Shown: piece after piece, positions 149-22,243 of the stretch
How positions within the stretch are numbered: the stretch's first letter is position 1
How the letters are laid out: the number at the start of each line of letters is the position of its first letter
NCBI GenBank assembly: GCA_020851635.1
Contig: JADZCJ010000022.1
Span: 1-64,000 of the forward strand
DNA from: Anaerolineae bacterium
GTDB taxonomy: Bacteria; Chloroflexota; Anaerolineae; UBA4142; SHND01
Length of the DNA stretch: 64,000 bases
Direction: 5' to 3'
Position numbers and translations under genes: made by a program
The notes under the pieces: model-generated
Database searches by the model: none
Told to the model about the DNA's origin: nothing
The model's input: the letters and a program-made list of their open reading frames with translations, nothing else

Positions 149-242
149 GGGGGTAGTTCTGTCCCGGTGGGCGGCGCGGTCTTCAAAATCGTTGCGAGGT
201 GGTTGTGCCATCTTGGGTGGGTTCGACTCCCATCTACTCCCG
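149..242 (+). tRNA. selC: tRNA-Sec (selenocysteine tRNA, anticodon TCA)
   Basis: This is a selenocysteine tRNA that reads UGA during selenoprotein synthesis. The acceptor stem is 8 bp (149-156 with 234-241, one G-T pair). The D stem is 6 bp with a 4-base loop (159-164 with 169-174). The anticodon loop CTTCAAA (181-187) carries TCA at 183-185 on a 5-bp stem. A long variable arm follows, then a T arm TGGG-TTCGACT-CCCA. The 8-bp acceptor, 6-bp D stem and long variable arm are the diagnostic set for bacterial tRNA-Sec. The discriminator base is G242 and CCA is not encoded. No selA, selB or selD lies in the window. Confidence 0.93.
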
Positions 243-21954: not shown

Positions 21955-21989
21955 AAAAAACAAAAAGGTAGGCATTCCCTGCCTACCTT
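21955..21989 (-). terminator. Second intrinsic terminator in the ilv leader region
   Basis: On the minus strand AAGGTAGGCA (21989-21980) pairs with TGCCTACCTT (21974-21965) around a 5-base loop, followed by TTTG and six T. It lies between the attenuator hairpin at 22071-22099 and the small ORF at 21935. It would have to be read through, or bypassed by a promoter I cannot identify, to express ilvB. Confidence 0.88.
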
Positions 21990-22070: not shown

Positions 22071-22099
22071 AAAAAACCCGCCTGTTGGTTCAGGCGGGT
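22071..22099 (-). terminator. Attenuator-type terminator downstream of the ilv leader peptide
   Basis: On the minus strand ACCCGCCTG (22099-22091) pairs perfectly with CAGGCGGGT (22084-22076) around AACCAA, followed by a T-run (22076-22071). It begins 24 bases after the leader peptide stop codon. The 5' arm also matches CAGGCG at 22175-22170, inside the leader coding region, giving a mutually exclusive antiterminator pairing. Confidence 0.85.
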
Positions 22100-22123
22100 C
22101 CGATTCGCTGCATTTCTGCTCGC

Positions 22124-22243
22124 TTATCGTCGTCGGGGGCGGTTCCCGATTTTCGCCAAAACCAAATTACGCCTGTTGCTAAGGACGATGACCTCAACAA
22201 GGCTAATAATGCTGACGACGACAATAACACCAAGGGCGAACAT
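22124..22243 (-). CDS. ilv operon leader peptide (candidate attenuation peptide)
   Basis: This is a 39-codon ORF upstream of ilvB. Residues 4-21 (L-G-V-I-V-V-V-S-I-I-S-L-V-E-V-I-V-L) contain 14 Ile/Val/Leu out of 18, followed by S-N-R-R and a basic tail ending RPRRR. This is the composition expected of a ribosome-stalling leader that measures charged tRNA-Ile, -Val and -Leu, as in the enterobacterial ilv leaders. There is no Shine-Dalgarno; the extended -10 at 22252-22260 would start the transcript within a few bases of ATG 22243. Downstream is the terminator at 22071-22099. A short membrane peptide is the main alternative reading, but the operon position favours attenuation. Confidence 0.78.
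   Translation of the reverse strand: MFALGVIVVVSIISLVEVIVLSNRRNLVLAKIGNRPRRR

Follow-up and report, generated by a model that had tools for sequence, protein, structure and literature searches.

The ilv/leu gene row in this stretch of DNA from an Anaerolineae bacterium (64 kb, taken whole and referred to below as the window) is preceded by what, judged from its sequence and that of its relatives, is a ribosome-mediated transcription attenuator, a reading to which we assign a probability of about 0.87. The region comprises a short leader ORF rich in Ile, Val and Leu codons, an intrinsic terminator (T1) between this ORF and ilvB, the first gene of the row, and an antiterminator helix that excludes T1. 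Complementarity, covariation and computed stall folds agree that this helix would be available while a ribosome is stalled at the cognate codons and would be masked once the ribosome has moved beyond them. The ORF, T1 and the two alternative pairings stand at the head of ilv/leu genes and are conserved together in relatives.

Leader ORF, promoter and operon

The leader ORF (22243-22124, minus strand) has 39 codons, translates as MFALGVIVVVSIISLVEVIVLSNRRNLVLAKIGNRPRRR* and is conserved in the genus, the order and the class. At codons 4-21, 14 of the 18 residues are Ile, Val or Leu compared with 22.8% in seven of the operon proteins, an enrichment with a binomial P of ~1e-6 for the stretch taken alone and uncorrected for the choice of stretch. 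As in attenuators of the ilvL type, a short translatable ORF is thus rich in codons for the products of its own operon. Translation and a terminator scan confirmed this ORF, the composition of residues 4-21 and the strong terminator that follows, all of which had been described in an earlier note on this DNA. The leader is one of four short ORFs in the 64 kb window with at least nine Ile, Leu or Val per 12 residues and one of the two among these that have a terminator after them, the other being a plus-strand frame of 75 aa. By eye, GUCGUC codons and a GACGAC at the end of the leader ORF are a candidate long-range pairing.

An extended -10 promoter element, TGGTAAAAT (22260-22252, minus strand), lies 8 nt upstream of the leader ATG. 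Such an element (TGn TACAAT or TGn TAAAAT), ending 7-8 nt before the leader ATG, was found in five of six members of the genus, and no Shine-Dalgarno-like motif was detected before the ATG in the same five, such that the leader mRNA in the genus is probably leaderless or nearly so. A promoter scan found no TTGACA/TATAAT pair at threshold at the leader of the window. Many other families have a perfect TTGACA and a TATACT-like -10 just upstream of the leader, the distance from the -10 to the ATG being mostly 24-45 nt. The transcription start reported for C. glutamicum ilvBNC is one nucleotide away from the start codon of its leader (PMC11857589).

The genes downstream (21624-8576, minus strand) are arranged as ilvB-ilvN-ilvC-leuA-leuC-leuD-cimA-MFS-leuB-pheA-ilvE, the row of eleven including a citramalate synthase and an MFS transporter between leuD and leuB. 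The 11-gene content proposed previously is therefore correct from ilvB to ilvE, and the row probably forms one operon. Directly upstream of the leader lies a gene for a PucR-type regulator (23704-22373, minus strand) with HTH_30 and GGDEF_2 domains and syntenic counterparts in several f1 and f2 genomes. A selenocysteine tRNA is encoded elsewhere in the window (149-241, plus strand; Rfam RF01852, 69.5 bits).

Alternative pairings in the leader RNA

T1 (22101-22071, minus strand) consists of a stem, a 6-nt loop and TTTTTT, with the terminator scan placing the hairpin at 22101-22074 ahead of the U-tract, and is conserved. The 5′ arm of the antiterminator, TTGGTTTTGGCG (22165-22154, minus strand), occupies codons 27-30 of the leader ORF and pairs with CGCCTGAACCAA (22096-22085), which is the 5′ arm and loop of T1. 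Two further hairpins were identified on the same strand. P1 lies inside the leader ORF (22203-22170) with the arms GCCTTGTTG (22203-22195) and CAACAGGCG (22178-22170), and P3 (TCGGG-N7-CCCGA, 22149-22133) occupies the last part of the ORF, the antiterminator helix closing around it. For P1, seven to nine of nine pairs were formed in all 15 sequences with a compensatory change in L121, while pairing in the antiterminator helix stood at 95% in the f1 and f2 alignment (A2), where L122 carries compensatory substitutions (CGTT opposite AACG), and one pair of P3 was AU in seven sequences and GC in seven. The window's own antiterminator contains one mismatch and was not significant alone (shuffle p=0.10), so comparative tests were used.

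Stall folding was carried out on the window RNA downstream of the ribosome with the 3′ arm of T1 still unmade. In these computed folds the full antiterminator was the minimum at all A-site positions tested between codons 5 and 22, the antiterminator and its inner hairpins amounting to ~-30.7 kcal/mol with the upstream RNA covered. Four inner pairs of the antiterminator were all that was left with the ribosome at codon 24, and from codon 26 there were none. The full antiterminator thus survives stalls as far as codon 22 but not those at codon 24 or later, which places the switch point at the end of the Ile/Val/Leu run at codon 21. With the whole RNA made, the T1 fold exceeds the antiterminator in stability by ~7.5 kcal/mol, and the choice between the folds must therefore be kinetic rather than one of equilibrium.

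We infer ribosome stalling, a response to amino acid supply, termination in vivo and a kinetic choice of fold as follows. Transcription, to go by the promoter, would start at or beside the leader ATG and a ribosome would translate the Ile/Val/Leu-rich peptide, stalling within codons 4-21 on a shortage of charged Ile-, Val- or Leu-tRNA. The codon 27-30 arm, left uncovered, would then pair with T1 (its first arm and its loop) in a helix enclosing P3, such that T1 is blocked and RNA polymerase continues. In good supply the ribosome would cover the codon 27-30 arm while T1 is being made, T1 would form and transcription would stop near 22071.

A leader ORF may also regulate its operon by other means, as is the case for S. 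coelicolor ilvB, a precedent for leader regulation without codon-specific stalling in which codon changes had no effect and the response was unlike that predicted by classical attenuation (PMC1262725), or the leader may be bound by a protein. The conservation of the C-terminal leader codons (SNRRN..WAK...RRR), which exceeds the needs of a simple stall site, would fit a regulator of this kind, but it is accounted for by the pairing of P1, the antiterminator and P3. In addition, the run always consists of Ile, Val and Leu across families despite its varying sequence. Regulation without stalling is accordingly regarded as unlikely here.

Within the attenuation model, the earlier note had proposed a different antiterminator arm, CAGGCG (22175-22170), pairing with the CGCCTG of T1. 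The motif and its complementarity to the 5′ arm of T1 are both present in the window, the complementarity being perfect over 6 bp, and 97.8% of cells in the f1 and f2 alignment are paired. This pairing showed zero covariation in the same families, however, and the motif is disrupted in L120, which has CACGCG, and L017 carries a mismatch. Both the stall folds and the comparison with other families, in which the antiterminator arm is the later one, favour 22165-22154, and CAACAGGCG, which contains CAGGCG, is better explained as the 3′ arm of P1. The assignment of CAGGCG as the antiterminator arm is thus probably wrong and holds little promise, with the conserved arm being TTGGTTTTGGCG. What stood of the earlier reading was leader-peptide attenuation itself, in keeping with conservation, family-specific complementarity and folding, together with the existence of alternative antiterminator and T1 folds.

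Conservation of the probable attenuator in the Chloroflexota

The closest named relatives of the window are Anaerolineae/Chloroflexota MAGs, bearing out its previous placement as a probable member of the Chloroflexota. Upstream regions were screened class-wide for an ORF with at least nine Ile, Val or Leu in 12 residues and a terminator within 90 nt, and such an arrangement before ilvB, expected in related genomes on the attenuation reading, was found in 44 of 105 regions and in none of the 105 when the opposite strand was screened. Approximately half of the ilvB upstream regions in the class are without such a leader, some of these having ilvD upstream. The leader and T1 are present in all six genomes of the genus, and in the sister family f2, where the operon is often ilvD-first, they precede ilvD in 7/7 such operons examined. 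Outside the class, an Ile/Val/Leu-rich ORF with a terminator was seen in single representatives of four families of the same phylum (f61, f70, f72 and f106). An Ile/Val/Leu-rich ORF and terminator before ilvB were also noted in Myxococcales and Schekmanbacteria MAGs (L162, L201, L158, L164).

The pairing is family-specific. Across 53 leaders with 19 family labels, the segment just past the run is complementary to the 5′ arm and loop of its own T1, with the best leader:T1 duplex averaging -17.8 kcal/mol compared with -13.2 kcal/mol when T1 arms were taken from other families. For 19 family representatives, the matched set was equalled by 0 of 20,000 permutations, giving the lowest P that the test allows (5e-5). 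In almost every family the duplex follows immediately on the run, and the sequences differ by family with the pairing following them, as in the antiterminator segments CGGTTGGAAGGC (f16), CGCGTTGGGAAGGCC (f35), AGGGGGCGTTT (f45) and GGTTTGGGCG (f1/f2).

These comparisons also bear on whether the product of the ORF is a small membrane peptide with a function of its own, as its hydrophobic run followed by a basic tail might suggest. Within the genus, dS was 0.07-0.35 for the leader as against 0.57-1.19 for a second small ORF (ORF2, below) in the same genomes, indicating that the leader nucleotides are constrained beyond the peptide alone. Such low synonymous divergence points to constraint at the level of RNA, and the peptide itself differs widely between families, making a membrane peptide very improbable. 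It is scarcely credible that T1 is merely the terminator of the PucR-type gene, directly upstream and syntenic as that gene is, with the ORF there by coincidence, since ORF and family-specific pairing are conserved and other families with the leader and T1 had no PucR match in the upstream stretch examined.

Additional terminators and a second small ORF

Two further terminators lie between T1 and ilvB. The earlier note had mentioned a second terminator at 21955-21989 as complicating the model; this terminator, T2 (GAAGGTAGGC...GCCTACC), is located at 21991-21961 on the minus strand, with the terminator scan giving 21991-21963, and is conserved in six of six genus members. The possibility that T2 is a genome-wide repeat was rejected, one exact copy being found in each of four genomes, at this locus. 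A conserved CCTTC...GAAGG pairing in the T2 region (22000-21961, minus strand) excludes the T2 stem and may represent a second switch.

Beyond T2 lie two features that had been missed previously, ORF2 (21935-21711, minus strand) and a third terminator hairpin, T3 (about 21747-21690, minus strand; z of -5.7 to -7.6 in five genus members). ORF2 encodes a conserved 74-aa small protein ending ...SECLFDCYNG*, is preceded by AAGGAG at 21945-21940 and has no Pfam match. Its dN/dS is below 1, indicating that ORF2 is under purifying selection, and its C-terminus is conserved as W..E[RC][LM][TSF][DE]CYN[DGN]*. ORF2 is found again in f2, where it separates T1 from ilvD or ilvB and where, in some genomes, its stop overlaps the ilvD start codon; the model search for it covered order-level genomes. 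Besides the window, members of the family stand between the attenuator and ilvB/ilvD in L015, L117, L118, L120, L122, L123 and L274. In the f2 genome L274, which was matched independently through ORF2 only, the leader, ORF2 and ilvD follow in a row. Outside the order, a motif search of class upstream regions found no ORF2.

In f1, the 5′ arm of T3 is the end of ORF2 with the ORF2 stop codon inside T3, and ribosomes translating ORF2 would presumably open T3. Transcription must pass T2 and T3 as well as T1 to enter ilvB, which counts against a simple attenuator model, and the arrangement of serial terminators with ORF2 is unusual and is left unexplained by the standard model, such that the genus may have a variant of it. 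One tentative and rather doubtful suggestion is a two-layer device in which T1 reads Ile/Val/Leu supply via the leader peptide and T3 reads the translation of ORF2. A ribosome reaching or held at the ORF2 stop would melt T3 and allow transcription into ilvB, with the ORF2 C-terminus (W..E[RC][LM]..CYN[DGN]*) acting as a nascent-chain sensor or ORF2 serving as a translational-coupling ORF.

Relation to known leaders

The arrangement resembles ilvL of the E. coli ilvXGMEDA operon, with an Ile/Val/Leu-rich ORF, an antiterminator arm in the ORF after the run and a terminator past the stop. As a positive control, the same script recovered the ORF, the terminator and a -18.2 kcal antiterminator duplex at E. 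coli ilvL. The system described here differs in phylum, peptide, RNA sequences, P1/P3 layout and an apparently leaderless mRNA in the genus, as well as in having two extra terminators and the 74-aa ORF2. E. coli has a small ORF, ilvX, between the attenuator and ilvG, and here ORF2 follows T1, no relation between the two being claimed.

The likeness to enterobacterial leaders drawn in the earlier note holds for E. coli, and the comparison extends to the ilvB leaders of the Actinobacteria (PMC1262725, PMC10272879, PMC11857589). The Corynebacterium ilvB leader (ilvB-II motif) likewise has a short BCAA-rich ORF, a transcription start beside the start codon and a terminator/antiterminator (PMC11857589, PMC10272879), although in C. 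glutamicum the peptide has 15 codons (MTIIRLVVVTARRLP), a single terminator is described and the structures are terminator, antiterminator and antiantiterminator. In Streptomyces and Mycobacterium, leader ORFs with Ile/Val/Leu runs and a terminator also precede ilvB (Seliverstov 2005, PMC1262725), but there the run overlaps the terminator, whereas here run and terminator are separate and the antiterminator covaries (PMC1262725).

T-box leaders likewise control amino acid genes by antitermination, unlike which this locus had no match to the T-box covariance model (RF00230). Rfam searches at the gathering score and at a relaxed E-value returned nothing relevant at the locus, the ilvB-associated motifs in Rfam included. 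Seven T-box-like matches below the curated cut-off (E of 1e-14 to 1e-18) occur elsewhere in the genome (G000; contigs C1, C9, C23, C15, C25, C144 and C10). In f68, another Chloroflexota family outside the class, the ilvB upstream stretch has a T-box match.

A search of the openly accessible literature found no leader peptides described for Chloroflexota or Anaerolineae. The core of the attenuator is of a known kind and is apparently unreported in the Chloroflexota. These observations would extend ilv leader-peptide attenuation to this phylum, with dozens of leaders in which the pairing has been rewritten by family, and highlight a conserved small ORF and terminators in series that lie outside the standard model. 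For annotators they add a class of short unannotated genes, and they predict where branched-chain amino acids may be sensed in the Anaerolineae.
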